Source: Comamonadaceae bacterium
GTDB lineage: Bacteria > Pseudomonadota > Gammaproteobacteria > Burkholderiales > Burkholderiaceae_C
NCBI GenBank assembly: GCA_947476285.1
Contig: CANJPU010000017.1
Coordinates: forward strand, 1-64,000
Length of the DNA stretch: 64,000 bases
Reading direction: 5' to 3'
The notes below the pieces were generated by a model. It worked only from the letters and a program-made list of their open reading frames with translations. It was not told the DNA's origin and made no database searches. The translations under genes and the position numbers were made by a program. Shown piece after piece: positions 3,326-32,014 of the stretch; within the stretch, counting starts at the first letter, position 1, and each line of letters starts with the position of its first letter.

Positions 3326-3333
3326 CGCACGGC

Positions 3334-3361
3334 TGCCCCAAGGCCTAGCGGCACTGGGGCA
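3334..3361. terminator. short hairpin between convergent genes
   Basis: TGCCCC (3334-3339) and GGGGCA (3356-3361) can pair across a 16-nt loop just after the stop of the repeat-protein gene and before the stop of the convergent hydratase gene. There is no T-run, so its role as a terminator is weakly supported. Confidence 0.3.
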
Positions 3362-3378
3362 AGCTTCTCAACGCGAAC

Positions 3379-4572: not shown

Positions 4573-6930
4573 TCAAGCAATCACACCCGAAGCCTTGAGT
4601 TGCGCGATCTCGTCGGCAGGCAGGCCCAGCAGTTCGCCAAACACAAAATCGTTGTGCTCGCCCGGCAGCGGGCCGCTGCGATCGATCTGCGGCTTGAAAT
4701 CCGAAAAACGCCACGGCGCGCGAAAGACATCTTCACGGCCATACACCGCAATGTCCACCGCCGTCTTGAGCTCGCGTGCTTCGAAGTGCGGATCACGCCA
4801 TTGCTCTTGTATGGAAAGAACTGGCGATGACGCGATGCCGCGAGCGCGCAGACGCGCCACCAGTTCATCGCGGTCATGCATGCGAGTCCAGTTGGCCAGC
4901 GCGCCATCCAAATCGGCCACATGCTGCAGCCGACCCGCCTGCGTTTGAAACCGCACATCGGCCGCCCAGGCCTCTCCACCTGCCAACTCAAGCAAAGCCC
5001 GCCACTGCGAATCGCTTGCCGCCGCGATAGTGAGCCAGGCATCTTCACCCGCTGCCGGATAAATGCCGTGCGGGGCCAGATCAGGATGGCGGTTACCCAT
5101 GGTGGGTGTCTGCCGGCCCTGCACCTGGGTGTCGAGCAAATAAGGCCGCAGCGTGCCCATCAAGGCCTCCACCTGCGACACATCCACATAGCAGCCCTGC
5201 CCTGTGGTACGCGCATGGCGCAAGGCGGCCAGCACCGCCACCAGCGCATGCACCGATGCATTGGGGTCGCCCAGCGCGAAGTTGAGCGCGCCTATGGGTG
5301 CCTCGCCCGGGTAGCCCACCAGTGCCTCCATGCCGGCAAAGCTGGCCATGGTGGGCGCATAGGCGCGCATGCTGGCGAGCTCGCCGAACTGGCCCGCAGC
5401 CGACAGGGCCAGCATCACCAGGCGCGGATTCACCGCCTTGAGATCGTCATAGCCCAGGCTGGTGCGCTCCATGGAGCCGGGCGACATGTTCTCCACCACC
5501 AGGTCGCTCATGGCCACCAGGCGCTTGAGCAAGGCCACCGCGCGCGGCTCCTTGGCGTTGAGCGTGATGCCCAGCTTGCCGTGGTTGATCTGGTGGTACA
5601 TGGGCGACATCTCTTGCGAATTGCCCTGCACGATCTGGCCATCGCGCATGATGCGGCCTGATAGGCGCAGGTTGTCCGGCCGTTTGCCGTGCTCCACCTT
5701 GATCACCTGCGCGCCCAGCTCGCCCAGTATCGTGCCCACCCAGGGCGCCGACCAGACCCAACCGAAATCAATGACACGCATGCCCGCCAGCGGACGGGCC
5801 GGGTCTGCGCCCAGGCCTGAGGGACGCACCGACGCGCCATCGCGCAGCAGTGTGGATGCGATATCGGTGGCGCCGTCGCTGCGCGAATGTGTCACCTTGA
5901 ATGGCAGCGCCGGTACACGCACCGCTTTGCCGGCCACCTGGCCTTCGACCAAAAATTCCCGCTTGGTGAAATGCTGTGTGGCCAGTACTTCGGAAAAACC
6001 GCGTATCGGCGAGACGATGAGGTTGTTTCGATGGGCCAGCGCTTCGAGTTCGGCCATGGTGTGCTGCGCCAGCCAGGGCAGCATGAGCTGATCGACTTCA
6101 TCAGGGTATTGCCGCCCCATGGCGCGCAAATCTTGGTAGCGCGGCTCTTGTGCCCATTGCGGATTGCCCATCACCGCCACCAGCCGCATCCATTCCTCGC
6201 GGGTGCGGCCGCAGATGCAAACCTCGCCATCCTTGCAAGGCAAAATCACAAAGGGATAAGCACCGCCTGAGCCCGATGCCCGCCGCCCGCTTCGCTGCCA
6301 CAGCAGGCCGTGGTGAATATAAAAGCGGCAGTTGCCCGCCACATAACTGGCCAGCACTTCAGCCAGCGACACATCCACGATGCGCCCGCTGCCACGCTCA
6401 TCGCGAGCGGACAAGGCCATCAGGCAACCAGCCGCCAGCATCGCACCCGATTGATGTTCCAGAATGCCGGGCGGCAGCGACAAGGGCGAGCGCCCCGGCT
6501 CACCCAGCACCCATGCACTGCCGCTCAAGGCCTGTGCATCAAGGCCTACGCCGACAAATTTTGAGTAGGGTCCGTCCAGGCCGAAGGGTGTCGCCAGCGC
6601 GATGATGAGTGCAGGCAGCCGCGCATGCAGATTCGCCACCGGCCCAGCCAATGCCTCAAGGCTTTCGCGCTCATCGGCGATCAGGATGTCGCAGTCGGCG
6701 AGCAAAGCATCGAATGCCGCACCGCTGGCAGGACAATCCGCGCTCTGTTTGCCATCGGCCAACACCTGCAGGCCGAGCTGCACCGGGCTGGCGTCGCTCA
6801 CGCCTGACGCGGCTGCGTCATGGGCAATGAGGCGGGTGACTTGCGCACCCATGCGCGAGAGCAGCCAGCCCGCATAGGCCGCGCTGATGCCGCTGTTTGA
6901 AAACTCAATGACGCGCAGGGGTTTGTTCAT
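4573..6930 (-). CDS. double-domain CaiB/BaiF (family III) CoA-transferase
   Basis: Predicted transferase moving CoA between carboxylic acids. The 785-aa length is about twice the family norm (about 400), and the protein contains two tandem CaiB/BaiF domains. Residues 1-360 open with LRVIEFSNSGISAAYAG and contain DVSLAEV; residues about 380-785 open with GMRVIDFGWVWSAPWVG, then GELGAQVIKVEHGKRPD and DVSQVEA, ending in the usual PLPGEHNDFVFGELLG. The second domain has an Asp in ALGDPNASVH where the family carries its catalytic Asp. The matching stretch of the first domain (GILEHQSGAML) lacks one, so domain 1 may be non-catalytic (inference). It lies 18 nt downstream of the Bug-protein stop and 30 nt upstream of the hydratase gene, an apparent operon. 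Confidence 0.85.
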   Translation of the reverse strand: MNKPLRVIEFSNSGISAAYAGWLLSRMGAQVTRLIAHDAAASGVSDASPVQLGLQVLADGKQSADCPASGAAFDALLADCDILIADERESLEALAGPVANLHARLPALIIALATPFGLDGPYSKFVGVGLDAQALSGSAWVLGEPGRSPLSLPPGILEHQSGAMLAAGCLMALSARDERGSGRIVDVSLAEVLASYVAGNCRFYIHHGLLWQRSGRRASGSGGAYPFVILPCKDGEVCICGRTREEWMRLVAVMGNPQWAQEPRYQDLRAMGRQYPDEVDQLMLPWLAQHTMAELEALAHRNNLIVSPIRGFSEVLATQHFTKREFLVEGQVAGKAVRVPALPFKVTHSRSDGATDIASTLLRDGASVRPSGLGADPARPLAGMRVIDFGWVWSAPWVGTILGELGAQVIKVEHGKRPDNLRLSGRIMRDGQIVQGNSQEMSPMYHQINHGKLGITLNAKEPRAVALLKRLVAMSDLVVENMSPGSMERTSLGYDDLKAVNPRLVMLALSAAGQFGELASMRAYAPTMASFAGMEALVGYPGEAPIGALNFALGDPNASVHALVAVLAALRHARTTGQGCYVDVSQVEALMGTLRPYLLDTQVQGRQTPTMGNRHPDLAPHGIYPAAGEDAWLTIAAASDSQWRALLELAGGEAWAADVRFQTQAGRLQHVADLDGALANWTRMHDRDELVARLRARGIASSPVLSIQEQWRDPHFEARELKTAVDIAVYGREDVFRAPWRFSDFKPQIDRSGPLPGEHNDFVFGELLGLPADEIAQLKASGVIA

Positions 6931-6948
6931 GAATGTCAGGAACAGGAC

Positions 6949-7944
6949 TCACTCAGGCTGAATGCCCGCGCCGCGAGCAAGCTCGGCCCACTTGCGCGTC
7001 TCGCCTATCACCCACTCGCGCAATTGGGCCGGGCTGTTGGGCGCGGCGTCCACGCCCATGGCGGTGAGGCCGTCCACAAACTCCTTGTCGCGCAAGATCT
7101 TGACCATCTCTTCATTGAGCCGGCGCACGATGGGCTCTGGGGTTTTGGCGGGCGCGAAGGCGGCGATGAATCCCACCAGCTCATAGCCGGCAACGCCCTG
7201 CTCTGCCAATGTGGGCATATCAGGCATGGTGGCCGAACGGCGCGCACTTGACACACCAAAGGCCTTCACAGCGCCTGAGCGCACATGCGGCAGCATCAGT
7301 GCAATGTCGCCCAGCAGCATGCTGATCTGGCCGCCGCGCAAATCGGTCAGGGCTTGCGCATTGGACTTGTAGGGCACGCTCAGGATATCGGTGCTGGTCT
7401 TGGCCTTGAACAGCTCAGAGGCCAAACGCGCCGACCCGGTGCCACTGCCAAAGCTCAGCTTGCCAGGGTTGGCCTTGGCGTAGGCGATGAATTCCTGCAG
7501 GTTTTTCACCGGCACGTCGTTGTTCACGCACAAGACCAGCGCGGCGATGCCCAGACGCGAGATCGGCTCAAAATCATTGATCGGGTCATAGGGCATGTTC
7601 TTTAGAAAGCTCGCATTGCCCGCATGCGTGGTGTTGGTGCCAATCAAAATCGTGTGGCCATCGGGCGCAGCGCGCGCCACAGTCTGGGCTGCGATCACGC
7701 CACTGCCGCCGGGCATGTTCTCTACCGTCACTGAAGTTCCCAGCGCCTTGCCCAAGCGATCGCTCAAACGCCGCGCAAGAGTGTCGGTCGCGCCGCCCGC
7801 ACCCACCGAGACAATCATGCGGATGGGCTTGCCAGCGAAGGGGCTGGGCGCTTGTGCCAAAGCCGGCAGCGCGCACAGAGCGGCCAGAGTCAATGCGATG
7901 TTGGCCAGGCCTTGGCCCAGGCGATGACGAGTCAATGGATTCAT
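6949..7944 (-). CDS. Bug/TctC-family periplasmic solute-binding protein
   Basis: Periplasmic extracytoplasmic receptor of the Bug (tripartite tricarboxylate transporter receptor) family, which bind small carboxylates; many in Burkholderiales are orphans without TctAB, as here. The 331-aa product has a Sec signal peptide (hydrophobic ANIALTLAALCALPALAQA, cleavage after AQA), then the family opening KPIRMIVSVGAGGATDTLAR and conserved GTNTTHAGNASF and PYDPINDFEPISRLG motifs. I chose the ATG at 7944 over the longer open frame because it starts the signal peptide and has a GGAG ribosome-binding site about 10 nt upstream. Its place between a hydratase and a CoA-transferase suggests it senses or delivers the acid degraded by this cluster (inference). 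Confidence 0.88.
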   Translation of the reverse strand: MNPLTRHRLGQGLANIALTLAALCALPALAQAPSPFAGKPIRMIVSVGAGGATDTLARRLSDRLGKALGTSVTVENMPGGSGVIAAQTVARAAPDGHTILIGTNTTHAGNASFLKNMPYDPINDFEPISRLGIAALVLCVNNDVPVKNLQEFIAYAKANPGKLSFGSGTGSARLASELFKAKTSTDILSVPYKSNAQALTDLRGGQISMLLGDIALMLPHVRSGAVKAFGVSSARRSATMPDMPTLAEQGVAGYELVGFIAAFAPAKTPEPIVRRLNEEMVKILRDKEFVDGLTAMGVDAAPNSPAQLREWVIGETRKWAELARGAGIQPE

Positions 7945-8002
7945 GCTTGTGTCTCCGAAAGAGTTTTGTGTTGGTGTGAAATGAATTGTGTGGGCCTGCA
8001 CC

Positions 8003-8851
8003 CTATTGCGCCCGCGCCTCAAAGGTGATTTGCCCGCCATCGTCGCGTGCAAGCAAGCGCCAGGCGTCGCGATCGGCCCAGGCTTGCAATGCAAGCGCGT
8101 GGCCGCAGTACATGGGTGCGAGGTTGCGGCAAGTCAATGAAGCCGGCTCGCGTTGCGCCACCGAGCGAAACAGCTCCAGCAGGAACATGGTGGGAATGCT
8201 GCCGTTCACGACCAGTGCAGGATAGCCTTCGACCCGGGTTGCATAGGCCAGGTCGTAGTGAATACGGTGAGGGTTGTCGGTGATGGCCGAGTAGCGAAAC
8301 AGCATGCGCTCATCGGGCACAAGCGTGCGGCTGGCGGCGGGGCCGACTTCAGGTGCGCCCTGCGGGGCTGCAGCAGGTGCAGCAGGCGCAACAGCCACAA
8401 CAGGCTGGGCCGGCGCCTCTTCGCGCAAAACATAGTCCACGCATTCAATGACAGCGGGCTGGTCTGATTGCCCGGTGAATATCCGGTGCTCGATCTGAAC
8501 CAGCGCAAACCTGCCGGAGCGCCCCTGCTTGATTTGCGGCGCGCTCTGACGTGATTCGCGCCTGACATGCGCGCCCAGTGCAATATCGGAGACGAATTGA
8601 ATCTGCCGCCCACCCATCATCAGGCGCGGCAGGCCCAGATCAGGCAGCACAAAACCCAGATAGCCGGCTCCATCGGCGCGCAGTTGCGACTGGCGCGTTG
8701 GTGCGTTGAACAGCATCACATGCCAACCGCGCGGCAATGCACTGCCTTCGCGCAGAGTGGCAGGGTCGCGCTCAAGCATGGCCGCCAGTCGGCGGGCCAG
8801 TGGCAGGCTGCACACATCATCAGCGTGCTCGACGGGCGATGGCGATTGCAT
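8003..8851 (-). CDS. FAS1-like acyl-CoA dehydratase (mesaconyl-C4-CoA hydratase-like)
   Basis: Predicted 282-aa acyl-CoA hydratase with two hot-dog-like regions separated by an Ala/Pro-rich linker (about residues 175-195). The C-terminal part has the hallmark RYSAITDNPHRIHYD followed by VEGYPALVVNGSIPTMFLLE, close to the motif of mesaconyl-C4-CoA/3-methylfumaryl-CoA hydratases and HTD2-type dehydratases. I chose the ATG at 8851; the frame is open to 8944, but that extension lacks family-like sequence. The start overlaps the end of the upstream GntR gene by 32 nt and has no good Shine-Dalgarno, which fits translational coupling. The exact substrate is unknown. Confidence 0.75.
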   Translation of the reverse strand: MQSPSPVEHADDVCSLPLARRLAAMLERDPATLREGSALPRGWHVMLFNAPTRQSQLRADGAGYLGFVLPDLGLPRLMMGGRQIQFVSDIALGAHVRRESRQSAPQIKQGRSGRFALVQIEHRIFTGQSDQPAVIECVDYVLREEAPAQPVVAVAPAAPAAAPQGAPEVGPAASRTLVPDERMLFRYSAITDNPHRIHYDLAYATRVEGYPALVVNGSIPTMFLLELFRSVAQREPASLTCRNLAPMYCGHALALQAWADRDAWRLLARDDGGQITFEARAQ

Positions 8852-9710
8852 TGGAAGGCTTATGTTTTTGTACGCGCGATGAGGCCGCTTTGGTGGGTAC
8901 TTCTGCTGCGGCTGCTGCCACCGCCGCCTGCAGATACTGGGCATAGGCCTGCACGTCGCGCTCGGAGCGGCGCCGCGCGGCTTCGGCGTCCTGGGCTTCT
9001 ATGGCCTGAAGGATGCGCAGATGGGCGTGGGTGACGAGTTGGCGGATCTCTTCGGTCGCGAAGTTCTTGATGCGCGAGGCCTCCAGCATCATCTCTGAGA
9101 TCGACGCGGTGAACGCATGCAGCAAATCGTTGTGGCTGGCCGCTGCCAGCGCAGAATGCCAGTTGGCGTTCTCTTCCAGAAAACGCGGCACATCGGTCTG
9201 CGCGGCCGCTGCAAGGCGCGAAGAAATCTCTTTGAGCCTGGCCAGATCGTCTTCAGTGCGGTTGCGCGCGGCAAGGTACGCCACCATGGGTTCGAGCGCC
9301 TGGCGTGCCTCCACCAGCGCGCTCAGCACCACACTGCGCCCTTTGGCGAACAACTGGATGTGATTGGCCAAGAGCGCATCGGTGGGCTGCGAGACCACCG
9401 AGCCGCCATAACGCCCGGCTTTGGTTCGCACCAGGCCCTGGGCCTCAAGTATGCGCAGCGCCTCGCGCACCGAGCCACGGCTGATGCCGCTGGCCAGCAC
9501 CAGTTCGCGCTCGGTCGGCAAGGCCGAACCAGGTGGAAACAGGCCACTGAGAATTTCGGACTGAAGGCGTTGCGCCAGTACTTCGCATGACTTGGGCACG
9601 TTGATCACGCTGAGCTTGCCCAGCATGCCCTTGGCCGCTGCTACTGGCTTCTCAACGGGTGGCGAAGCAAGGGGGCGCGATCGGGGTGGCTTCGGTTTGG
9701 CGACAGGCAT
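8820..9710 (-). CDS. GntR-family (FadR subfamily) transcriptional regulator
   Basis: DNA-binding regulator of 296 aa. After a basic, proline-rich N-terminal extension of about 35 aa comes a winged-helix domain (about 45-110: LPTERELVLASGISRGSVRE, then ALRILEAQGLVRTKAGRYGG), followed by an all-helical FCD effector domain (about 125-250). FadR-subfamily proteins with FCD domains usually bind small organic acids or acyl-CoAs and control adjacent catabolic genes. The gene overlaps the hydratase gene downstream, which supports a role in controlling the 3.4-10 kb acyl-CoA cluster. The C-terminal tail is Ala-rich then basic and looks disordered. Confidence 0.88.
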   Translation of the reverse strand: MPVAKPKPPRSRPLASPPVEKPVAAAKGMLGKLSVINVPKSCEVLAQRLQSEILSGLFPPGSALPTERELVLASGISRGSVREALRILEAQGLVRTKAGRYGGSVVSQPTDALLANHIQLFAKGRSVVLSALVEARQALEPMVAYLAARNRTEDDLARLKEISSRLAAAAQTDVPRFLEENANWHSALAAASHNDLLHAFTASISEMMLEASRIKNFATEEIRQLVTHAHLRILQAIEAQDAEAARRRSERDVQAYAQYLQAAVAAAAAEVPTKAASSRVQKHKPSNAIAIARRAR

Positions 9711-22322: not shown

Positions 22323-23954
22323 TCACCCCGCCGTCGGCAATTGGTAGTCCTTGAGCAGCTCCCTCAGCCGCGTCTTGAGCATCTTGCCGGTGGCGCCCAA
22401 TGGAATCGCATCAACAAACACCACGTCGTCCGGAATCTGCCACTTGGCTGTCTTGCCTTCGTAAAACTTGAGCAGCTCTTCGCGGGTGAGTTCGGCGCCG
22501 GGTTTCTTGACCACGACCACGATGGGCCGCTCGTCCCACTTGGGATGGCGCATGCCGATGCAGGCGGCCATGGCCACTGCCGGGTGCGCCACCGCGATGT
22601 TCTCCACATCGATGGAGCTGATCCACTCGCCGCCGGATTTGATGACGTCCTTGCTGCGGTCGGTGATCTGCATGTAGCCATCGGCGTCGATGGTGGCGAC
22701 ATCGCCCGTGGGGAACCAGCCGTCAACCAAGGGGTCTCCACCCTCACCCTTGAAATATTCACGCAAAATCCAGGGGCCCTTGACGTGCAGGTCGCCGGGT
22801 GTCTTGCCGTCCCAGGGCAACTCTTTGCCATCATGGTCAACAATGCGCATGTCCACGCCATAGATCGCACGGCCTTGCTTGAGGCGAATTTTCATCTGGT
22901 CCTCGGTGGACATGGTCAGATGCTTGTTCTTGAGCGTGCACAGCGTGCCCAAGGGGCTCATCTCGGTCATGCCCCATGCGTGCAGCACTTCTACGCCGTA
23001 GTCGTCGCGGAAGGCATCGATCATGGCCGGCGGGCAGGCCGATCCACCAATCACCGTGCGCTTGAGCGTGGAGAACCGAAGCTTGTTGGGCTTCATGTGG
23101 CCCAGCAGCATCTGCCACACCGTGGGCACGCCAGCCGCGTAATTCACGCCCTCGGCCTCGATCAGCTCATAGACAGATTTGCCATCGAGCGCCGGCCCAG
23201 GAAACACCAACTTGGCCCCGACTAACGCAGCCGAATAGGGAATGCCCCAGGCATTGACGTGGAACATCGGGACCACCGGCAAGATCGAATCGCGGGCCGA
23301 CATGCACATCACATCAGGCAAGGCCGCGGCGTAGGCATGGAGTGTGGTGGAGCGGTGGCTGTACAAAGCCGCCTTGGGGTTGCCGGTGGTGCCACTCGTG
23401 TAGCACATGCTCGACGCCGTGTTTTCGTCGAACTGCGGCCATTCATAGGCAGTGGGCTGCGCGCCAATCCAGGCTTCATAGCTCACCAGATTGGGAATGC
23501 CGCTGTCAGCCGGAAGCTTGTCAGCGTCGCACAGCGCGACATACTTGCCAATGCCGGGGCAGCGGGCATGAATTGCCTGCACCAGTGGCAGGAAGCTCAT
23601 GTCAAAGCACAGCACCTTGTCCTGCGCGTGGTTGGCAATCCAGGCGATCTGATCGGGGTGCAAGCGCGGATTGATGGTGTGCAGCACCCGGCCCGATCCG
23701 CTGACGCCAAAATAAAGCTCCAGGTGCCGGTAGCCGTTCCAGGCCAGCGTGGCGACCCGCTCGGAAAACGGCAGCTTCATGGCGTCCAGCGCGTTGGCCA
23801 ATTGGCGTGAGCGCAATGCCACCTCGCGCCAGGTGTAGCGGTGAATGTCGCCTTCCACGCGGCGCGACACAACTTGTGCGTCGCCGTGATGGCGCTGCGC
23901 AAACTCAATCAATGAAGATATCAAAAGCGGTTGGCTCTGCATCAGGCCCAGCAT
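22323..23954 (-). CDS. acyl-CoA synthetase (AMP-forming, medium/long-chain type)
   Basis: Adenylate-forming ligase of 543 aa that activates a carboxylic acid to its CoA thioester with ATP. Motifs are MCYTSGTTGNPKAALYSHRS (P-loop), HAWGMTEMSPLG (A5), GWFPTGDVATIDADGYMQIT (A7), DRSKDVIKSGGEWIS (A8) and the catalytic Lys region PLGATGKMLKTRLRE near the C-terminus. I chose the ATG at 23954 because AAGGAG lies about 8 nt upstream. It is 62 nt upstream of livH on the same strand, so transporter and ligase probably form one uptake-and-activation unit feeding the beta-oxidation genes. Confidence 0.92.
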   Translation of the reverse strand: MLGLMQSQPLLISSLIEFAQRHHGDAQVVSRRVEGDIHRYTWREVALRSRQLANALDAMKLPFSERVATLAWNGYRHLELYFGVSGSGRVLHTINPRLHPDQIAWIANHAQDKVLCFDMSFLPLVQAIHARCPGIGKYVALCDADKLPADSGIPNLVSYEAWIGAQPTAYEWPQFDENTASSMCYTSGTTGNPKAALYSHRSTTLHAYAAALPDVMCMSARDSILPVVPMFHVNAWGIPYSAALVGAKLVFPGPALDGKSVYELIEAEGVNYAAGVPTVWQMLLGHMKPNKLRFSTLKRTVIGGSACPPAMIDAFRDDYGVEVLHAWGMTEMSPLGTLCTLKNKHLTMSTEDQMKIRLKQGRAIYGVDMRIVDHDGKELPWDGKTPGDLHVKGPWILREYFKGEGGDPLVDGWFPTGDVATIDADGYMQITDRSKDVIKSGGEWISSIDVENIAVAHPAVAMAACIGMRHPKWDERPIVVVVKKPGAELTREELLKFYEGKTAKWQIPDDVVFVDAIPLGATGKMLKTRLRELLKDYQLPTAG

Positions 23955-24038
23955 TGCAAACTCCTTGGCGTTAAGCGTCAAACACCCGATCGTAGTACCT
24001 GCCGCCACATGACGGAAGGGACAAACCCCCGATCGAAC

Positions 24039-25220
24039 CTATGACGCAGTGGAATGCGGGGTTTCCATCGGCCTGAAATGCAGCGTGATGACCGTGCCCT
24101 TCCCTATCTCGGATCGAATCTCGACGGAGCCACTGATGGATTGCATGACCCGATGACAGAACATCAGCCCCATGCCGGTGCCGCCTGAGTTGGCCCGGGT
24201 GGTCACCGGCTCGCGCGTCAACTTGGCCAGCACCTCTGGCGGGATGCCGGGGCCGTTGTCGGTGAAGCGAATCCAAGGCCGGGCGATTGCACCGCGCGGG
24301 TCCTTCACGCCTACTTCCACCAAGAGCCGAGGCTGCGGCATGCCACGCATGGCGATCATCGCGTTCTTGGTCAGGGTGCACAGCACAAGATAGAGCAAAT
24401 CGCGCCGCCCCGGCAGGCTGAAGTCCTCGAACACCAGGCTATTGGCCCAGGCGCGCTCACGGCCATCGAACGGAAACTCGTCCAGCAGCGAAGCCACCAA
24501 TGCGCGGGCACTGACGCTCTGCATGGCAGAGCCCGGATAGGCATCGCGTGCAGACTGCACGAAGGTGGACACCAGCGACTGGCAGTAAAGCGCGCGCCGC
24601 TCTGCGCGTTCTAGTGCGGCGATCAGCTCGCCGGTGTGGTGCTCAGTGAACTGTGCCACGCCGGTTTCCACTCCTGCCTGTGGATGCAGATAGCGAGTGG
24701 CCACCGTGTTTACGCAGCCGCGCACCGTGGCCAGCGGGGTGTTGAGCTCGTGCGCCAGAAAACCCAGCGTGTCGCGCAATGCCGCCACCCGCCCTTCGTT
24801 GAGCGCGCGCTCGAAGGCCTGCGCACGGTACAGTGTGGACGCTTCGCGCAGCGCCTCGCGCGTGCTGGCCTCTTCCAGCGGCTTTTCAAGAATGCGCAGC
24901 ACCTTGCCCTGGTTGACTGCGGCAATCGCAACATCTTTCTCGGCGTAGGCAGTGGCCAGCAGCCGGATAATGTGCCGAAAATCCCGCTGCACCGCACTCA
25001 GCAGCTTCATGCCGTCTTGGTCAGGCATGCGGTAATCTGTGACCAGCACGGCAAACTCTTTGCCTCTATTGGCCAGCAACTCCAGAGCCTGCACCACACC
25101 ATCGGCAGTCACTACCTGGAACTCGTCGCCGAAAGTGCGGGCAAACCATTTGCGAGAAGAGGACTCGTCATCGACGAAAAGAATCGACGCGCCTTCGTCG
25201 GCCAGGCTGGATGGAACCAT
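24039..25220 (-). CDS. receiver-histidine kinase (PhcR/PhcQ-like), third gene of signalling cassette
   Basis: A 393-aa protein with an N-terminal receiver (residues 12-125; acidic pair VDDE at 17-19, phospho-Asp 62 in VTDYRMPDQDG, Lys 113 in LEKPLEE) followed by a histidine-kinase core: His 157 in LGFLAHELNTPLATVRG, N-box LCTLTKNAMIAM, G1 DNGPGIPPEV and G2 GTGMGLMFCHRVMQ. It has no DNA-binding output domain. The receiver-then-kinase order resembles the PhcR/PhcQ proteins that work with the PhcS sensor in Ralstonia and Cupriavidus, from memory. Only 3 nt separate it from the stop of the CqsS-like kinase, so they are co-translated and probably form a phosphorelay. Its output target is not in the window. 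Confidence 0.85.
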   Translation of the reverse strand: MVPSSLADEGASILFVDDESSSRKWFARTFGDEFQVVTADGVVQALELLANRGKEFAVLVTDYRMPDQDGMKLLSAVQRDFRHIIRLLATAYAEKDVAIAAVNQGKVLRILEKPLEEASTREALREASTLYRAQAFERALNEGRVAALRDTLGFLAHELNTPLATVRGCVNTVATRYLHPQAGVETGVAQFTEHHTGELIAALERAERRALYCQSLVSTFVQSARDAYPGSAMQSVSARALVASLLDEFPFDGRERAWANSLVFEDFSLPGRRDLLYLVLCTLTKNAMIAMRGMPQPRLLVEVGVKDPRGAIARPWIRFTDNGPGIPPEVLAKLTREPVTTRANSGGTGMGLMFCHRVMQSISGSVEIRSEIGKGTVITLHFRPMETPHSTAS

Positions 25221-25223
25221 GTA

Positions 25224-27749
25224 CTAAATTTCGGTGATCGTTGAATGTGCCAAGGCATATGCTCTCAGCGCTTGTTGTGCATCTTCAGAAGCCGACTTGA
25301 TCTGTGCCAACCAGTCGGGCTGCATAGGCCAGCTCTTGGACTCGAGCGCTGGCACATAGATGCTGCGGGTCACTCGGTAGAGCCCCTGCGCGCCCGCCTC
25401 GCCGCTGATGCCCAGCATGGAGTGCATCGCATCCAGGCAAGCCTTGAGGTCTTGCGCCTGCGCGGCGTCCTCTAGCTGACCCAGCAGCCGGCTCAACTCG
25501 GGCAGGTAATCTGAGAGCAATTCGGACAGCATGCCGATGCGCCGGTAGCTGTCCAGGCGCATCTGGTCCAGCGCGGCGCCTTCGGTCTGGGCAGACACTG
25601 GGGCGGCGGCGGGGTAGTCGGGCTGGGGTGCGTTGGGATCATGAGACCCGGTCAAGCGCCTCAGCCTTGCATACAGCACATGGGCATCGACTGGTTTGGT
25701 GATGAAGTCATTCATGCCCGCGCTGGCTGCCTGCTTGAGGATGTCGTCGGCTGAATGGGCACTCAAGGCCAGGATGGGGATGTCCTTCCATGATTCGCTG
25801 CTGCGGCGAATGGCCTGCGTGGTCTCCATGCCGCTCATGCCGGGCATGTTCAGGTCCATCACGATGGCGTCGCAGTGCCCGGCCCTTTGCAACTGGTTCA
25901 GCACCTCCTGGCCATGGGCTGCCTCGGCCACGGTGGCGCCCGCGTGGCGCAGGTAGGCGGCCACTGATTTGCGGTTGTAGGGGTTGTCATCGGCCAGGAT
26001 GATGTGCCGCCCCGCCAGCACCGCGTGCGCCTTGGCGCGCCCTGGCGCCAGCAGCGCGCGGTGCAAGGCCTGCAGCAACTGCAGGCAATCGGAAGGCTTG
26101 CTCACGAACGCATCCATGCCGGCCTTGGCAGTCTTGACGCTGGCCAGGTGCGCTGGCTCGCTCGAATAGGCCACGATGCGCACATCGCGGTTGAGCGGCG
26201 CGGCCTGACCCTGGCGCAGCCTCTCGGCCACGCCATAGCCATCGAGCAGCGGCATGTTTAGATCAAGCAGTACCAGATCAAAGCGCTGAATGGACAGCGC
26301 CTCCAGGGCGATCAGCCCATCGGCCGCCTCCTGCAGTTGCGCCTGCAGGGGCTCCAGCTTGGCCAGCGTGGCTTTGCGCTGCAGCGCATCGTCATCGACG
26401 ATGAGAATGCGCTTGCCGGCAAAGGCGGCGCGCGCTGCCTCCAGCACGCTTTGGCGGTGGGCCTCGTAGTCTTGCGCGCTTGTGGGCGGAAAGCTCAAAG
26501 TGAACTCGGTGTACTGGCCCAACTCGGATTGGCAGGCGATGTCGCCGCCAAAGGCCCTCATGACGCGCCGGCAGTAGGCCAGGCCCAGGCCAGTGCCGCC
26601 GGATTTGCCCACCGAGCGAAACGGCTGGAACAGCCCGGTCAGCACCTCCGGGGCGATGCCCGGGCCGCTGTCGCGCACCTTGACCTGATGCTCGCCCACG
26701 CTCAGGTCGATGCGCGCATCGGGGTAGAGCGTGAGGTAGTACAGCGCGTTCTTGATCAGGTTGAACAGCACGAACAAGTAGGCCGTCTCGTCGCCCCGGA
26801 AGGTGAAGTCGGCCTCAATGCGCACGCCCAGGCGGGCCCGGTCGGCCTCGCTGTCGAAGGCATATTCTTCAACCGCTTTCTGGGTGGCCTGGGCGGCACT
26901 GAGGTAGCCAAAGGATGCCGCGTCCATCGGCTTGGCGTTGACCTCATCGAGCGTCATGTCGATCACCTGCAGGCCGCGCCTGACCGCCACTTCGCTCTCG
27001 GCCAGATGCCGGTACAGGGTGTCGATCTCGCGTGGCGCCAGGCTGTAGCTCTGCTCGGTCGTGCTGGGCGCGGGCAGCGCCTGCTGCATGCCCTCAAGAC
27101 TGTGCTTTATTTGGCTGAACGGGTTGCGCATCTCGTGGGCGATCGAGCCGGCAAGGGCTTGGGTTGTCCGCAGTTTGCGCTCGGTGTCAATCTGCTCAGT
27201 GGAGAACTTGAAGAGATTGCCCCCAATGACAATCAGCGCGAACGCCGGCAATTGCGCAATGAGATCGACCGGCAGCTTGGGGTTGGTGGTTGTGCCCATG
27301 TAGACGGCTGCTGCCAGGCCGACGCCAAGGAAAAGCATGACCAAGGTGTTGCGCCAGTCAGTCAGCAAAACCAGGAAGCTGAGAATGATGAACGCATTGG
27401 AGATGGCCGGCACACCGCCGCCTCTTTGCAGTGCGGTCAGCACAGTGAAAAATGGCAGGCAAAACAGCAGCGCGAAATAAGAATAGCCAATGTAGTAGGG
27501 CTTGAGTTTCTCGGACCAACGGTCTTTGAGCGCGAGCAATGAAAATAGCGCGAAAGCGATGAACCGCAAAATCACATCGTCGAAAAGCTGAGGGTTGGGG
27601 CGAGTGAACCGCACGAGATAGAACAGCCCCACCGACGCCGCGCCCACATAGCCCATGTACTTCAGGCGTGGTGGCCCGTAGGCGTGATAGACCTTGTAGT
27701 GCTCGTAGGTGCCGCTGAATATATTGATCATGCAGGTGTGTTCATTCAT
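25224..27749 (-). CDS. CqsS/LqsS/PhcS-like six-helix hybrid sensor kinase with two receivers and HPt
   Basis: Inner-membrane hybrid histidine kinase of 841 aa. Residues 30-180 form six membrane helices without a periplasmic domain (GYVGAASVGLFYLVRF, VILRFIAFALFSLLAL, IGYSYFALLFCLPFF and others), the layout of the quorum-sensing kinases CqsS, LqsS and PhcS. The kinase core follows: His 205 in LAGSIAHEMRNPFSQIKHS, N-box LFNLIKNALYY, G1 RDSGPGIAPEV, G2 GGTGLGLAYCRRVM. Then come receiver 1 (Asp 496, VLLDLNMPLLDG), receiver 2 (Asp 632, IVMDLNMPGMSG) and an HPt domain (His 776, AMHSMLGISGEAG). CqsS itself has one receiver; the second and the HPt are additions. Its ATG overlaps the stop of the acyltransferase gene (ATGA). 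It probably senses a small lipid-like signal made by that enzyme (inference). Confidence 0.85.
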   Translation of the reverse strand: MNEHTCMINIFSGTYEHYKVYHAYGPPRLKYMGYVGAASVGLFYLVRFTRPNPQLFDDVILRFIAFALFSLLALKDRWSEKLKPYYIGYSYFALLFCLPFFTVLTALQRGGGVPAISNAFIILSFLVLLTDWRNTLVMLFLGVGLAAAVYMGTTTNPKLPVDLIAQLPAFALIVIGGNLFKFSTEQIDTERKLRTTQALAGSIAHEMRNPFSQIKHSLEGMQQALPAPSTTEQSYSLAPREIDTLYRHLAESEVAVRRGLQVIDMTLDEVNAKPMDAASFGYLSAAQATQKAVEEYAFDSEADRARLGVRIEADFTFRGDETAYLFVLFNLIKNALYYLTLYPDARIDLSVGEHQVKVRDSGPGIAPEVLTGLFQPFRSVGKSGGTGLGLAYCRRVMRAFGGDIACQSELGQYTEFTLSFPPTSAQDYEAHRQSVLEAARAAFAGKRILIVDDDALQRKATLAKLEPLQAQLQEAADGLIALEALSIQRFDLVLLDLNMPLLDGYGVAERLRQGQAAPLNRDVRIVAYSSEPAHLASVKTAKAGMDAFVSKPSDCLQLLQALHRALLAPGRAKAHAVLAGRHIILADDNPYNRKSVAAYLRHAGATVAEAAHGQEVLNQLQRAGHCDAIVMDLNMPGMSGMETTQAIRRSSESWKDIPILALSAHSADDILKQAASAGMNDFITKPVDAHVLYARLRRLTGSHDPNAPQPDYPAAAPVSAQTEGAALDQMRLDSYRRIGMLSELLSDYLPELSRLLGQLEDAAQAQDLKACLDAMHSMLGISGEAGAQGLYRVTRSIYVPALESKSWPMQPDWLAQIKSASEDAQQALRAYALAHSTITEI
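25662..25743. repeat. 82-bp perfect direct repeat, copy 1 (in sensor-kinase receiver 2)
   Basis: Identical base for base to 29096-29177. It encodes the end of receiver 2 (AASAGMNDFITKPVDAHVLY and flanks). Sequence on both sides diverges, although the HPt part remains similar at protein level. Confidence 0.92.
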
Positions 27750-28464
27750 GCAGCCAGACGGATCATTTCCATTTGGGCCTGCAACTTTTCTTCATCGGTG
27801 CTCGCCAGTGCCATTAGCACTGAAGGCACATGTCCGTGTATGAGGGAAATGGGGTCTGCGTTGCCTTCCTGGGCCTCTTTTATTAGAACCGAGAAACCGA
27901 ACCGTCTATAGAGACGACTGAGCAAAGGCGTGCATGCAGCGAAAAGGTTTTCGATGCTGGTTGTGCGAACAAGATGCAGTAGTGTCAGGTAAAGGCAACG
28001 TTTGAGGGCATCAGGCCCGCTGCGATATTCGGGTGCCAAGGCCAAGCGCCCGACCTCCCAACTGGCATCGTAAAAGCGAGCTGGGACAAGTGGTTTGTCC
28101 GCAAGCAAGGTCTCGCACGGTGCTAATCCACGGTCCATTGGAATGAGACGAATTGTCCCGATGAATACCCCCCGCAGCACGAAAGCACCGACAAATCCAT
28201 TTTCGTCTCTTTTTTTTCGCGGGCCAGGAATTGGGGGTCCGCCCGGACCCCGGCTGGCAGCCGAATCTCTTCACGCAGGTGGGCCACACGGGAAATATCC
28301 GCCAGGCCTTGCAGGTGGCAAAACCCCAACTCGCTGACAGGAACATCGATGCGCCCTGGGCGGACGTCGGCCACAGGTTCAGCAAAGTGCGGAAGTTGAA
28401 CCGGCACTTCATAAAGCGCCGGCCTCTGGCCATGAAACGATGGCGATGCCCAATGGGTGTCCAT
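27746..28464 (-). pseudogene. LuxI/FeeM-like acyltransferase (putative signal synthase), split by a frameshift
   Basis: Two frames together encode one GNAT-like acyltransferase of about 239 aa. Frame one runs from ATG 28464, with GGAGG 9 nt upstream, through LADISRVAHLREEIRLPAGV to FLAREKK. At a run of eight A (plus-strand T at 28210-28217) the homology moves to the -1 frame: RDENGFVGAFVLRGVFIG, TIRLIPMDRGLAPCE, WEVGRLALAPEYR and LYRRFGFSVLI, ending at 27746. This motif order (RxIP, then WEVGRLAL, then RFGF) resembles autoinducer synthases and N-acyl amino acid synthases. Restoring one A would give a continuous gene. It could be a real null mutation, a sequencing error, or slippage at A-AAA-AAA. 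The stop overlaps the sensor-kinase start (ATGA), so the two were selected as a pair. The substrate is unknown. Confidence 0.72.
28210..28217 (-). other. A8 homopolymer at the acyltransferase frameshift
   Basis: Read on the minus strand, the run is in frame as GAA AAA AAA GAG. A -1 shift gives AGA GAC GAA AAT, which continues into the conserved acyltransferase C-terminus. The run is an A-AAA-AAA heptamer followed by G, usable for ribosomal or transcriptional slippage, and is also a common place for indel errors. Confidence 0.8.
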
Positions 28465-28520
28465 TTTTATTTACCTCCCTTGTGGCCGTCATCCGGCAAG
28501 ACCGACGCGGCCACCGCTAA

Positions 28521-28548
28521 TTATCACCAAATTACATGGCAACGCAAC
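28521..28548 (-). promoter_or_regulatory. candidate sigma-70-like promoter of the signalling operon
   Basis: On the minus strand TTGCGT (28548-28543), a 16-nt spacer and GATAAT (28526-28521) lie about 57 nt upstream of the acyltransferase ATG. The -10 is 5/6 to consensus, the -35 only 3/6. The local AT-richness stands out in this GC-rich region. Confidence 0.4.
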
Positions 28549-28569
28549 TGTGAAGCGGGGTGCCGATAA

Positions 28570-28584
28570 CGCGACCTGGTCGCG
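28570..28584. promoter_or_regulatory. 15-bp palindrome, possible operator
   Basis: CGCGACC-T-GGTCGCG is a perfect 7-bp-arm palindrome about 22 bp upstream of the candidate -35 of the acyltransferase operon. The position suits an activator site. It is not a clear match to a lux box. Confidence 0.4.
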
Positions 28585-28639
28585 CAGTGGGCACACCGTA
28601 GGCGGTGGCCCGCTTTCCCAGGTGTTGACCGAACCCAGA

Positions 28640-29704
28640 TCAGGCGCTCGATCGTTGCGCCGCCGCATACGCTGTCATCTCCCGCTGCATGTGTGTAGCG
28701 CAATGTCTGAGATGCGCGACCCAATCGGCCTGGTCAGGCCAGGCCCCGCGCTTTCGCATCTGCTCGTGGATCCCGCTGGCGAGCTGGTGCAGGCCCCGGC
28801 CGCCAGCCTCGCCGCTCATACCCGAAATCGCGTGCAGTGTATCGAGACAGGCGTGGAAATCGCCCGCGCGGGCAGATCGTTCGAGCTTGTCGGTCCAGCG
28901 CATCAGTTCAGGCAAATGCACGGTCACCAGTTCGTCGAGCATGCCGATTGAGCGGCAAACCTCCAGGCGCTGAAAGTCGATATCACCTGACGTGGGCCAG
29001 GGTTGCGCCAATGAGCGTGCGTCGACGCTGCGCCTACTCAGTGCCTCTTGGGGCGCCACGGCTTGCCTCGCGTCACCATCGGCGAGGCAACGCCCCAGCC
29101 TTGCATACAGCACATGGGCATCGACTGGTTTGGTGATGAAGTCATTCATGCCCGCGCTGGCTGCCTGCTTGAGGATGCCGGTGCCCACGGGGCTGATGAC
29201 GAAGGGGCTCAGAGTCTGCAGGGCGACGGTGTCTTCGAAGGCGACTCTGGATTGGGCTTGCGCGGCTAGGTTGGTGAGGGTGGGGGAGAGGGTGACTTTG
29301 CAGGTGAGGGATTGGAATGTCGCACCCGACGCCAGGGCTTGCAGACTCGCGTGGAAAGCCGATCGAGTTGCTGCATCGTCCGCTACGTCATCGGTCCGCC
29401 GTTTGATTGAAGAGGCCGATTTCTTGAGGTTGGGGCTTCCTGAAACAAGCTCGACTACTTCAAATGAGTAGAAATAATCGGGACCCAGGCGCCCTTTATC
29501 CAACGGCAGTCCCCGGTACTGCGGAAACACCTCCCCATCCGCCCCAAAGTTTTCCTTCCCCAGCCTCACCGTCTCGTAGACATGCACCCCACCATCGATC
29601 GCACACAGCCGATCGACTTCGCGGTCGAGTTTGGTTTTGGCGCGCTCGCAGCCGGCCAAGCCGACCAAGATCAAAATCGTGAGACTCAATGTGATGAAAC
29701 GCAT
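28640..29704 (-). pseudogene. chimera: lipoprotein N-terminus fused to receiver tail plus HPt of a sensor kinase
   Basis: One open frame of 354 aa that joins two unrelated genes. Residues 1-175 are a lipoprotein: signal TLSLTILILVGLAGC with lipobox Cys 19, then LDREVDRLCAIDGGVHVYET and FGADGEVFPQYRGLP. From about residue 176 the sequence is the end of a receiver domain (ILKQAASAGMNDFITKPVDA), without its phospho-Asp, followed by an HPt domain (CLDTLHAISGMSGEAGGRGL) related to the tail of the sensor kinase at 25224-27749. The start has AAGGAG about 8 nt upstream. A lipoprotein signal would place the HPt outside the cytoplasm, so the fusion is most likely a rearrangement product. Whether any function remains is unknown. 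Confidence 0.75.
29096..29177. repeat. 82-bp perfect direct repeat, copy 2 (in lipoprotein-HPt chimera)
   Basis: Identical to 25662-25743. Its right edge (29177) is exactly where the open frame switches from kinase-derived to lipoprotein sequence, so it marks the recombination joint. Confidence 0.92.
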
Positions 29705-29766
29705 GGGATGCTCCTTGAGCGGCGCGCTTGGGGGCGCTTGGCCAGGCTGGTTGTAAAATGAACACC

Positions 29767-29817
29767 AATGACGTCATTATCGATGCAAATATCAAACTAT
29801 TGCAAACAAGAGTTTGC
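29767..29817. promoter_or_regulatory. AT-rich intergenic region with two inverted repeats
   Basis: Between the divergent chimera gene and the rhomboid gene, AATGACGTCATT (29767-29778) is a perfect 12-bp palindrome and GCAAAC-AAGA-GTTTGC (29802-29817) is a 6-bp-stem hairpin. Both are plausible regulator sites in a divergent promoter region; no factor can be named. Confidence 0.4.
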
Positions 29818-29865
29818 TAATGACCTCTTCTTGAGCCGCGCCAACGCCAGTTGCGAGACCGACGA

Positions 29866-30459
29866 ATGCAAAACCTGACAAACGCCTTGCTCAGCGTGAT
29901 CGACAGCGCCATCGACAGCCCGCCTCTGCTGGGTGCGATGCTGTTGTTGCTGTGGAGCGTGCATGCGATCAATGCGTTGCTGGCCTATCGGCTGAACGTG
30001 TTTGGCATTTATCCGCGGCGCTCAGTTGGGCTGCGGGGCATTTTGTTTTCGCCGTTTCTTCACGGCAGCGCCGGCCACTTGTTCTTCAATTGCATTCCGC
30101 TGGTGGTGCTGGCCACCTTGATCCTGGTGAACGGCCAGGCCTTCTTCTTTCAGGTGACGGCGATGATCGCCGTGCTAAGTGGCGTGTTGACCTGGTTACT
30201 GGGCCGAAGGGCCTTTCATGTGGGCGCCAGTTCAGTGATCATGGGGTACTGGAGTTTTCTGCTGGTCGATGCGGTGCTGCAGCGTTCTGCGCTGTCAATC
30301 GTGCTGGCGGCCTTGTGCCTCTACTACTTCGCGGGCATGTACACCAACATCTTTCCCAGGGAAGAGAAGACCTCCTGGGAAGGGCATTTGTTCGGCCTCT
30401 TGTCTGGCGTCGCGGTGAGCTATGTGCTGGTCCGCGGCTGGGTGCCGGCCCTTGGGTGA
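29866..30459 (+). CDS. rhomboid-family intramembrane serine protease
   Basis: Inner-membrane protein of 197 aa with about six hydrophobic helices. Rhomboid features are all visible: [14 protein letters not shown] (His and Asn of helix 2, residues about 67-80), the nucleophile motif in [15 protein letters not shown] (GxS, Ser near 122) and the catalytic His in [17 protein letters not shown] near 175. The Ser-His dyad is therefore intact. I chose the ATG at 29866 because it begins a natural amphipathic N-terminus ([13 protein letters not shown]). It lies 67 nt upstream of selO on the same strand. The substrate is unknown. Confidence 0.85.
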
Positions 30460-30526
30460 AGGCATGCGCCTTCGGGCAATGCCCCTGTTGGATACGGGCC
30501 CAGGCCGTGCCCCTGACAATCGGCCC

Positions 30527-32014
30527 ATGGATCAAGCCGTCGCCACCCCCACTGAACAATTAGACCTAGGCCTTGCCCTGCCCTGGCAAAACAGCTTCGC
30601 CAGCCTCGGCCCGGCCTTCTACACCGAGCTCATGCCCAGCCCCCTGCCCTCCCCCTATGTGGTGGGTGTGAATGACGCACTGGCGCGCGAGCTGGGCCTG
30701 GCCCCCGATGCGCTCAGATCGCAGGCAGGCGTTGAGGCCTTCACAGGCAACCAGCCGATCGCCGGGTCGCAGCCGCTGGCCAGTGTCTACAGCGGCCACC
30801 AGTTCGGTGTGTGGGCCGGCCAGTTGGGCGATGGGCGGGCCATCCTGCTGGGTGAGGCGCACACGGCCGCCGGGCCGCGCGAGATTCAGCTCAAGGGCAG
30901 CGGGCGCACGCCCTACTCGCGCATGGGCGATGGGCGCGCGGTGCTGCGATCGAGCATTCGCGAGTATCTGTGCTCCGAGGCGATGTGGGGCCTGGGCATT
31001 CCCACCACCCGCGCGCTGATGGTCACCGGCTCTGACGCACCGGTGCGGCGCGAAGAGATGGAAACCTCCGCCGTGGTGACGCGGGTGGCGCCCAGCTTCA
31101 TGCGCTTTGGTCACTTTGAACATTTCAGTGCCCGCAATCAATTGGACGAGTTACGCACCTTGGCCGACTATGTGCTTGACAGGTTTTACCCGCAGTGCCG
31201 CAGCACCGACAAGTTCGCCGGCAACGCCTACGCTGCGCTGCTGGAGCAGGTCAGCGAGCGCACCGCCGCGATGGTGGCGCAGTGGCAGGCGGTGGGCTTT
31301 TGCCATGGGGTGATGAACACCGACAACATGAGCATTCTGGGCCTGACCATCGACTATGGCCCCTTTCAGTTTCTCGATGCGTTTGACCCCGGCCACATTT
31401 GCAACCACAGCGATGACCAAGGCCGCTATGCCTACAACAAGCAGCCCAACATCGCTTACTGGAATCTCTTCTGCCTGGGCCAGGCGCTGCTGCCTTTGAT
31501 TGGCGATCAAGACCTTGCCCTGGCCGCGCTGGAGTCGTACAAGCAACTGTTTCCGCGCGAGTTGGAATTGCGCATGCGCGCCAAGCTGGGCCTGCCAGAC
31601 GCTCAGCCGCAAGACCGCGAGTTGATCGAAGGCATCTTGGCACTGCTGGCCGCCGACAAGGTGGACTACACCATCTTCTGGCGCAGGCTGTCCATGCATG
31701 CGGCGGGCGAGCCCGCGTCTCTGGTGCGCGATCTATTCCTACAGCGCGAGGCCTTCGACGCCTGGTCACTACAATATTCAAAGCGGCTGAGCACAGAATC
31801 GGCGCCGCAGATGCTGCGAACCAATCCAAAATACGTGCTGCGCAACCATCTGGGTGAGTTGGCCATTCGGCAAGCGAAACTAAAGGACCATTCTGGTGTC
31901 GAAGACCTGCTGGCACTGTTGCAAGCTCCGTACGATGAGCACCCGGGCCACAACGACAAGGCCGGGTTTCCGCCTGACTGGGCCACACAAATTGAAATAA
32001 GCTGCTCCTCATGA
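30527..32014 (+). CDS. selO: protein adenylyltransferase SelO (YdiU/UPF0061)
   Basis: Pseudokinase-fold enzyme that transfers AMP from ATP to Ser/Thr/Tyr of target proteins in redox stress. The 495-aa length and motifs fit: [80 protein letters not shown]. The C-terminus ends Cys-Ser-Ser, with Cys at the antepenultimate position where eukaryotic selenoprotein O has selenocysteine. I chose the ATG at 30527 ([11 protein letters not shown]) over upstream starts because the conserved N-terminus follows it. The stop overlaps the msrB start (ATGA), pairing two redox-linked proteins. Confidence 0.95.

Follow-up and report, generated by a model that had tools for sequence, protein, structure and literature searches.

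A signal-synthase-like gene with a conserved frame break in a putative quorum-sensing-like cassette of Ramlibacter-type Comamonadaceae

Introduction

In the CqsA/CqsS, LqsA/LqsS(/LqsR) and JqsA/JqsS/JqsR systems, the gene for the synthase lies beside that for a six-helix sensor kinase (PMC3376566, PMC3566124), CqsS and LqsS being sensor kinases with six transmembrane helices (PMC3376566). The phcBSRQ operon of Ralstonia and its relatives runs in the order synthase, sensor, receiver-histidine kinase (PMC8578825). Here, we describe a three-gene cassette on the minus strand of a 64,000-nucleotide stretch of DNA from a Comamonadaceae bacterium (assembly GCA_947476285.1, contig CANJPU010000017.1, positions 1 to 64,000), referred to below as the window. 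The cassette encodes a FeeM/LuxI-like acyltransferase, a hybrid sensor kinase and a receiver-histidine kinase, and its synthase gene does not form one continuous frame, being interrupted at a run of eight A (A8) and resuming in the -1 frame. Comparison of the sequences with those of relatives makes it probable, in our view, that the cassette is a quorum-sensing-like small-molecule circuit in Ramlibacter-type Comamonadaceae and that its synthase gene depends on programmed -1 recoding.

The cassette is a mosaic of a FeeM/LuxI-type synthase, a CqsS-type receptor and a PhcR-type output. Like the CqsA/CqsS-type systems, it has a sensor domain homologous to those of kinases near CqsA-like genes. Unlike CqsA, LqsA and JqsA, its synthase is FeeM/LuxI-like and not a pyridoxal phosphate (PLP) enzyme, and the synthase gene is frameshifted. 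The output partner is PhcR-like, in contrast to the CqsA/CqsS, LqsA/LqsS and JqsA/JqsS systems, and no CqsA-like gene was found in the genome. With phcBSRQ, the cassette shares the gene order and a homologous third protein, but it has no methyltransferase, no detectable PhcS-type membrane domain and no PhcQ-like gene after it, the next gene being an acyl-CoA ligase.

An acyl-type signal is read by a histidine kinase in LuxM/LuxN and AinS/AinR, LuxM belonging to a synthase family other than that of the cassette. We know of no recoding in LuxM/LuxN, AinS/AinR or FilI/FilR. In FilI/FilR, too, an acyl signal is reported to be read by a kinase (PMC3991700). The sensor domain of the cassette differs from those of all three systems. 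In its synthase, the cassette resembles FeeM (PF21926) and the LuxI N-acyl homoserine lactone (AHL) synthases, with a family match over the cut-off and homology to TofI, but differs from them in that the gene is frameshifted and linked to a sensor kinase.

Mobile elements account for most of the programmed frameshifts known in bacteria; the few cellular genes that have one include dnaX and prfB. Like the sites of dnaX and of insertion sequence (IS) elements, the site described here is short and A-rich, would act in the -1 direction and is conserved in phase; unlike those of dnaX, prfB and IS elements, it interrupts a signal-synthase-like gene ahead of the entire catalytic core, and no stimulatory structure was found. 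The parts of the cassette are each of a known kind. No account of their combination or of a recoded signal synthase gene was found in searches of open-licence papers, among them PMC5009743, PMC3711429 and PMC4066793, and GeneTack clusters may list the gene unnamed.

Results

The cassette comprises the following features.

28210..28464, minus strand: N-terminal part of the synthase, zero frame; ATG at 28464 with a GGGAGG ribosome-binding site, 85 codons to ...AREKK
28205..28218, minus strand: candidate slip site GAAAAAAAAGAGAC (A8); zero frame GAA AAA AAA GAG, the product resuming AGA GAC one base back
28123..28209, minus strand: zero-frame continuation after the run, a dead end with its stop about 28 codons past the run
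27746..28210, minus strand: C-terminal acyltransferase core, -1 frame, 154 amino acids, FeeM/LuxI-like (PF21926); TGA at 27746-27748
25224..27749, minus strand: hybrid sensor kinase, 841 amino acids; CqsS/LqsS-type domain at about amino acids 27-190, HisKA, HATPase_c, two receivers and HPt
24039..25220, minus strand: PhcR-like receiver-histidine kinase, 393 amino acids; receiver, HisKA and HATPase_c (Pfam)

The final TGA of the acyltransferase (27746-27748) overlaps the ATG of the hybrid kinase, and 3 bases separate the stop of the hybrid kinase from the ATG (25220) of the receiver-histidine kinase. These boundaries had been given in an earlier note on this DNA, made from the letters alone, and the coordinates bear them out. 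The same note wrote of an intact acyltransferase gene and did not mention a break; its coordinates span two frames. From the ATG at 28464, the zero frame runs for 85 codons to the A run and stops after codon 113, and all recognisable acyltransferase sequence lies in the -1 frame, 3' of the run. Neither the N-terminal zero-frame piece alone nor the 113-amino-acid zero-frame product matched any Pfam or NCBIfam family. The N-terminal piece lines up, by eye, with the N-termini of in-frame homologues, and the position of the dead-end stop differs among relatives.

In 44 of the 57 homologous synthase genes examined, the A run recurs and puts the gene out of frame in the same phase; the other 13 are in frame and without the run. 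These genes came from profile searches that found the synthase in 12 of 399 genomes of the family and in 43 of 60 genomes of the genus. Two of 87 genomes of a second genus also carried it, both already seen, and among 399 genomes of the order and 266 of the class only the window's own genome gave a match, these samples including few other family members. First-pass scoring covered at most 10 (order) and 15 (class) candidates per genome, at most 6 in the 399 family genomes and in the third-protein search described below, and at most 7 with the sensor profile. For both reasons, misses are possible. The set of 57 remained after removal of copies and doubtful rows, namely, L114 (identical in position to the second L106 gene), L078 (a copy of L012), L045 (a copy of L011), L116 (a profile match without the N-terminal part, from a genome that does carry the motif) and L118. 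In L118 (genome G796), the run is present but in frame, and the gene is broken again further on; the quality of the assembly there is uncertain.

Among the 44 slip genes, 38 have GAAAAAAAAGAGAC, five have a form ending ...GAGAT and one has nine A (GAAAAAAAAAGGAC). The exact motif GAAAAAAAAGAGAY occurs at 39 places in the 60 whole genomes of the genus, spread over 38 of them, and all 39 fall at the synthase gene; a reversed-pattern control gave no occurrences. Five synthase-bearing genomes of the genus are without the exact motif: G097 (the nine-A form), G796 (L118) and G789, G797 and G809, which have in-frame synthase genes only. A lone draft genome with a homopolymer indel would look much like the window, as would be expected if the break came from a pseudogene, a sequencing error or an assembly artefact. 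The same break is, however, present in 44 genes. A scan of genome contigs turned up two relatives, L011 from a Ramlibacter metagenome bin and L012 from the named strain Ramlibacter pallidus HM2, which are split identically at A8GAGACG; the single-contig genomes G272 and G836 have the break as well, and both halves of the gene are under frame-specific constraint (see below). The genus-wide motif count refutes an artefact in practice, and we give this explanation a negligible probability. Judged from these genomes, the break is not a matter of chance or assembly error, being kept in the same phase across relatives.

A homopolymer within the coding region, early in the gene, could also be a phase-variable contingency tract, replication slippage switching the synthase on and off and the sequenced genomes representing the off state. 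Such a switch should show many on-states. Of the 45 run-bearing genes whose profile match reaches the run, 44 share the out-of-frame phase, L118 being the sole exception, and phase variation is therefore very unlikely.

In a tree of the C-terminal part of the synthase (58 rows), the slip genes fall in a single clade of 47, which includes three members without the slip (L040, L109 and L118); the remaining 11 in-frame genes lie across a 100/100 branch from it. One gain and about three losses of the slip site would be a simple reading of this history.

To judge from codon choice, selection acts on the nucleotides at the slip site. At the position of the run, the in-frame homologues read [E/D]-x-x-[R/K]-D, and since none of the 13 has Lys-Lys there, the protein does not seem to require it. 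The slip genes read K-K-R-D in 43 of 44 cases and K-K-K-D in one; they spell Lys-Lys AAA AAA, followed by AGA in 43 genes and by AAG in one. In 43 adjacent kinase genes, AAA accounts for 10.5% of 883 Lys codons and AGA for 0.4% of 2460 Arg codons, compared with 4.6% for AGG, which is never the post-run codon in the 44 slip genes. The bases after the run thus seem to be constrained too, because AGA, and never the commoner AGG, follows it in 43 of 44. Outside the slip sites, 430 kb of loci contained three A/T runs of at least eight, all of them T as oriented.

Frame-specific conservation flips at the A run, and both halves of the gene are constrained in their own frame. Over the 45 codons upstream of the run, read in the zero frame, codon positions 1, 2 and 3 differ at 0.453, 0.407 and 0.550, and over the 45 codons downstream, read in the -1 frame, they differ at 0.417, 0.332 and 0.581. 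The other frames lose this codon-position pattern, with amino-acid change at 0.786 in both, compared with 0.623 (upstream) and 0.542 (downstream). Two frames might mean two separate proteins, an N-terminal one and an independently started C-terminal acyltransferase, and in 12 of the 44 slip loci a product-frame start codon does lie upstream of the site. Independent initiation is disfavoured by the other 32, which have no product-frame start before the run. In addition, the conserved R-D motif sits right at the run, and the natural in-frame homologues are single proteins that span both parts (12 rows, 204-266 amino acids); we consider two separate proteins highly improbable. The break is best read as programmed -1 recoding, presumably by slippage of the ribosome or of RNA polymerase, and not as an error or a pseudogene.

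The view of the enzyme as a LuxI/FeeM-like acyltransferase, already taken in the earlier note, is supported by two kinds of match. Its C-terminal piece matched PF21926 (FeeM) with an E value of 4.6e-7 and 30.2 bits, over the cut-off of 27, and PF21926 was matched at E <= 1e-3 by 9 of 12 in-frame homologues. The only significant match in the PDB was the AHL synthase TofI (3p2f), with E values of 2.6e-4 and 3.2e-5; the profiles were built from 16 C-terminal cores and from 12 natural full-length in-frame homologues. The motifs R-x-x-P and E-x-x-R form the core of LuxI AHL synthases, which have an S-adenosylmethionine-binding acidic motif at the N-terminus. The alignment to TofI covers the R-D, R-x-x-P, E-x-x-R and R-x-x-R-R stretch and begins only a few residues before the R-D motif. 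In four loci (L037, L040, L100 and L109), an extra separate gene lies between those for the synthase and the sensor. That of L037 encodes an iron-containing redox enzyme of the heme-oxygenase-like family (Haem_oxygenas_2, PF14518) and the other three are alike by eye, which suggests that the product may undergo further tailoring in these loci.

Pfam analysis of the hybrid kinase revealed HATPase_c, two receivers and an HPt domain, and that of the third protein revealed a receiver and HATPase_c, HisKA being under its cut-off in both; the two receivers and HPt domain followed by a receiver-histidine kinase, as first described from the letters, are thus in place. The corresponding motifs of the hybrid kinase are IAHEMR from amino acid 203 (HisKA), LVLLD from amino acid 492 and DAIVMD from amino acid 627 (receivers), and AMHSM from amino acid 774 (HPt). 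Its top NCBIfam match was LuxN, through the kinase and receiver only and far under the cut-off. The six membrane helices claimed for it derive from a low-confidence model together with the family; by hydropathy alone, fewer segments are clear.

A profile of the sensor domain (A5, from 48 domains) found 18 places outside the own genome in 399 genomes of the order, with E values from 4e-7 to 3e-44. A CqsA-like gene was present in 15 of the 18 stretches fetched around these related sensors, the misses being two short contigs and L151. The two seeding CqsA-like proteins scored 430.8 and 397.5 bits (first 300 residues) against NF005526 (alpha-hydroxyketone-type autoinducer synthase; cut-off, 428). 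These findings support assignment of the membrane domain to the CqsS/LqsS type, in line with the CqsS half of the original CqsS/PhcS-like label. The PhcS half did not hold: against two PhcS-like kinases, the profile gave E values of 0.03 and 0.035 (about 1 bit), a PhcS-type membrane domain was not detected, and the Phc-like member of the cassette is instead its third protein (PhcR).

A sensor of the same family stands beside the synthase in all 57 genes, and the pairing first proposed for the window therefore recurs throughout the set, the opposite of the rare adjacency that the earlier note had named as refuting it. Four of the slip-locus kinases (L011, L035, L061 and L101) were seen in part, at contig ends, and the first L106 gene was scored against the second kinase, its own starting at L106:1984. 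The sensor is 564-580 amino acids long in six loci, compared with 819-868 in most; because the window's sensor is longer than some of these, the receivers probably differ in number among relatives. In plasmids, the sensor domain found one weak match. The synthase stop overlaps the first possible sensor start in 25 of the 44 slip loci, lies at most 30 bases from it in 15 more and lies at least 110 bases from it in four, a start being taken as the first ATG, GTG or TTG in range and not as a proven one.

The own genome (G000, a draft that is 95% complete) gave no match to NF005526, and no CqsA-like synthase was found in it. It encodes three CqsS-type sensors: the window's, one on contig C7 beside an in-frame FeeM-like paralogue, and one on contig C29 without a FeeM-like neighbour. 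The C29 sensor (L014, about 6890-9448) is a hybrid of 852 amino acids, and no FeeM-like, CqsA-like or phcB-like gene was found beside it.

Two further relatives of the sensor were noted. At L151 (about 4628-9407), in another family, a CqsS-type hybrid sensor is preceded by a 438-amino-acid protein and followed by a gene for one of 285 amino acids. The first 300 residues of the 438-amino-acid protein had no NCBIfam match, and the locus is possibly yet another synthase swap. At L152 (about 2588-4331), the six-helix domain is seemingly fused to a nucleotide-cyclase-like region and not to a kinase, as read by eye.

The third protein is PhcR-like, with 41-63% identity to relatives outside the cassette (seven non-own matches in 300 genomes of the order). 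A phcB-like methyltransferase gene lies near these relatives in 7 of 7 fetched stretches, and by eye they have a kinase before and a receiver gene after them, in the phc order (one run was Pfam scanned). No phcB-like methyltransferase match was obtained in the window. The receiver-kinase is present in 35 of the 38 slip loci with enough downstream sequence and in 1 of 12 in-frame loci; that one (L109) belongs to the slip clade.

Discussion

The frame change could be made in two ways. Re-pairing of two lysyl-tRNAs one base back on A_AAA_AAA would fit a ribosomal model, and an extra A introduced by RNA polymerase would fit equally, so that the two stand near even. Slippage of RNA polymerase on the run, yielding transcripts with an extra A, would change the mechanism within programmed recoding and nothing else in our proposal; we rate its chance as slightly below even. 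It accords with a pure homopolymer of eight to nine A, with neither a stimulatory structure nor a block of Shine-Dalgarno (SD) sequence having been found, and with IS elements with eight A, in some of which one study suggests that slippage is productive (PMC1088944). Against it, a ribosomal heptamer and the one fixed A from the Glu codon already account for the full length of the run, and A8 is kept in 43 of 44 genes even though Lys codons at this place would make the run longer. The same study, covering 108 bacterial genomes, reports selection against A/T runs as evident only at nine in a large share of them (PMC1088944).

Under the recoded circuit that we favour, a slip at A8 by transcripts or ribosomes would yield a FeeM/LuxI-like acyltransferase of 239 amino acids, and reading without a slip would yield, on sequence conservation, a short fragment without the catalytic core. 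The enzyme would link an amine with an acyl chain, and what it makes would be released. Next, as family membership and the constant linkage suggest, the adjacent hybrid kinase would bind this product through its CqsS/LqsS-type membrane domain, and binding would switch a His-Asp-Asp-HPt relay that reaches the PhcR-like receiver-kinase. Slippage may also set the dose of the synthase and couple it to synthesis of the receptor: since in 40 of 44 slip loci a possible sensor start is overlapped by the synthase stop or is at most 30 bases from it, slipped translation would bring ribosomes to the gene for the sensor as well.

The N-acyl amino acids made by FeeM-type enzymes are not necessarily signals. 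The enzyme of the cassette might make a lipid, tailor a protein or make a secreted product with some other role, with the sensor detecting something else and no cell-to-cell signalling taking place. We regard this as unlikely, given that synthase and sensor occur together in 57 of 57 cases, that kinases encoded near autoinducer synthases have this kind of sensor domain and that the core resembles AHL synthases.

Several results weigh against a recoded, signal-producing synthase. The FeeM match is modest, some members falling just under the cut-off (26.3 versus 27 for L011), and TIGR03694 (PEP-CTERM acyltransferase) scored 15.7 versus a cut-off of 111.95. AlphaFold models, each from three sequences, were of low confidence, with a mean predicted local distance difference test (pLDDT) score of 54 for the C-terminal core and 51 for the sensor domain. 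A comparison with the folds of known synthases had been suggested at the outset and was made with the core: Foldseek ranked the AHL synthases RpaI and MesI first, but because the core model was poor and the matches were not significant (best E value, 0.075), this ranking was not relied on. The slip does not seem indispensable, as L040, L109 and L118 belong to the slip clade and yet do without it. No consensus RNA structure was found after the site (alifold energy of 0 at six offsets, ungapped rows), and an Rfam scan of positions 23500-30000 gave no match. Shuffled-fold z-scores were calculated for the 44 loci with two window lengths and nine offsets; single-sequence folds leaned weakly to structure in 50-base windows starting 2-30 bases on (mean z of -0.40 to -0.54, and -0.26 to +0.38 at other offsets), and 80-base windows gave no clear contrast after the slip site. 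SD-like 4-mers preceded the run in 4 of 44 genes, compared with 13 of 176 control windows. With neither a consensus structure nor SD enrichment found, the site lacks the stimulators usual for ribosomal slippage. Some recoding sites do without a stimulatory structure or an SD sequence.

A bolder proposal, which we put forward as tentative and somewhat doubtful, is that the cassette might be a new acyl-type autoinducer circuit, with heme-oxygenase-like tailoring in some relatives, and that the one-base slip might act in it as a ratio controller, only slipped readings making the synthase and reaching the overlapping sensor start. Were this so, signal output would track the state of transcription or translation (growth rate and lysyl-tRNA supply) in addition to cell density. 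A conserved frameshift in a signal synthase, if real, would be a new way to control autoinducer dose, and the circuit would be overlooked, since automatic annotation will probably treat the gene as broken. The occurrence of the same sensor family with PLP-type and LuxI/FeeM-type synthases shows that CqsS-type receptors are modular, and this modularity suggests that an environmental genus has a class of signal still to be characterised.

Neighbouring genes

Two genes flank the cassette in the window, and their names are taken from the sequence.

22323..24008, minus strand: acyl-CoA ligase gene, directly downstream neighbour of the cassette; a possible member of the circuit
30422-32014, plus strand: SelO-like gene

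The cassettes of relatives often adjoin the same two neighbours. Downstream sequence exceeds 5.3 kb in 38 slip loci, and in 21 of these an acyl-CoA ligase gene follows in the same orientation, about 4.2-4.9 kb beyond the slip site. The chromosomal location of the cassette is conserved, and the ligase is perhaps a substrate supplier.

Upstream of the synthase, an open reading frame of 354 amino acids (28640-29704, minus strand) seems to combine a lipoprotein N-terminus with the tail of a second receiver and an HPt domain. A stretch of 90 bases in it is 97.8% identical to the window's sensor gene, and it is probably the relic of a duplicated sensor or a product of gene conversion.

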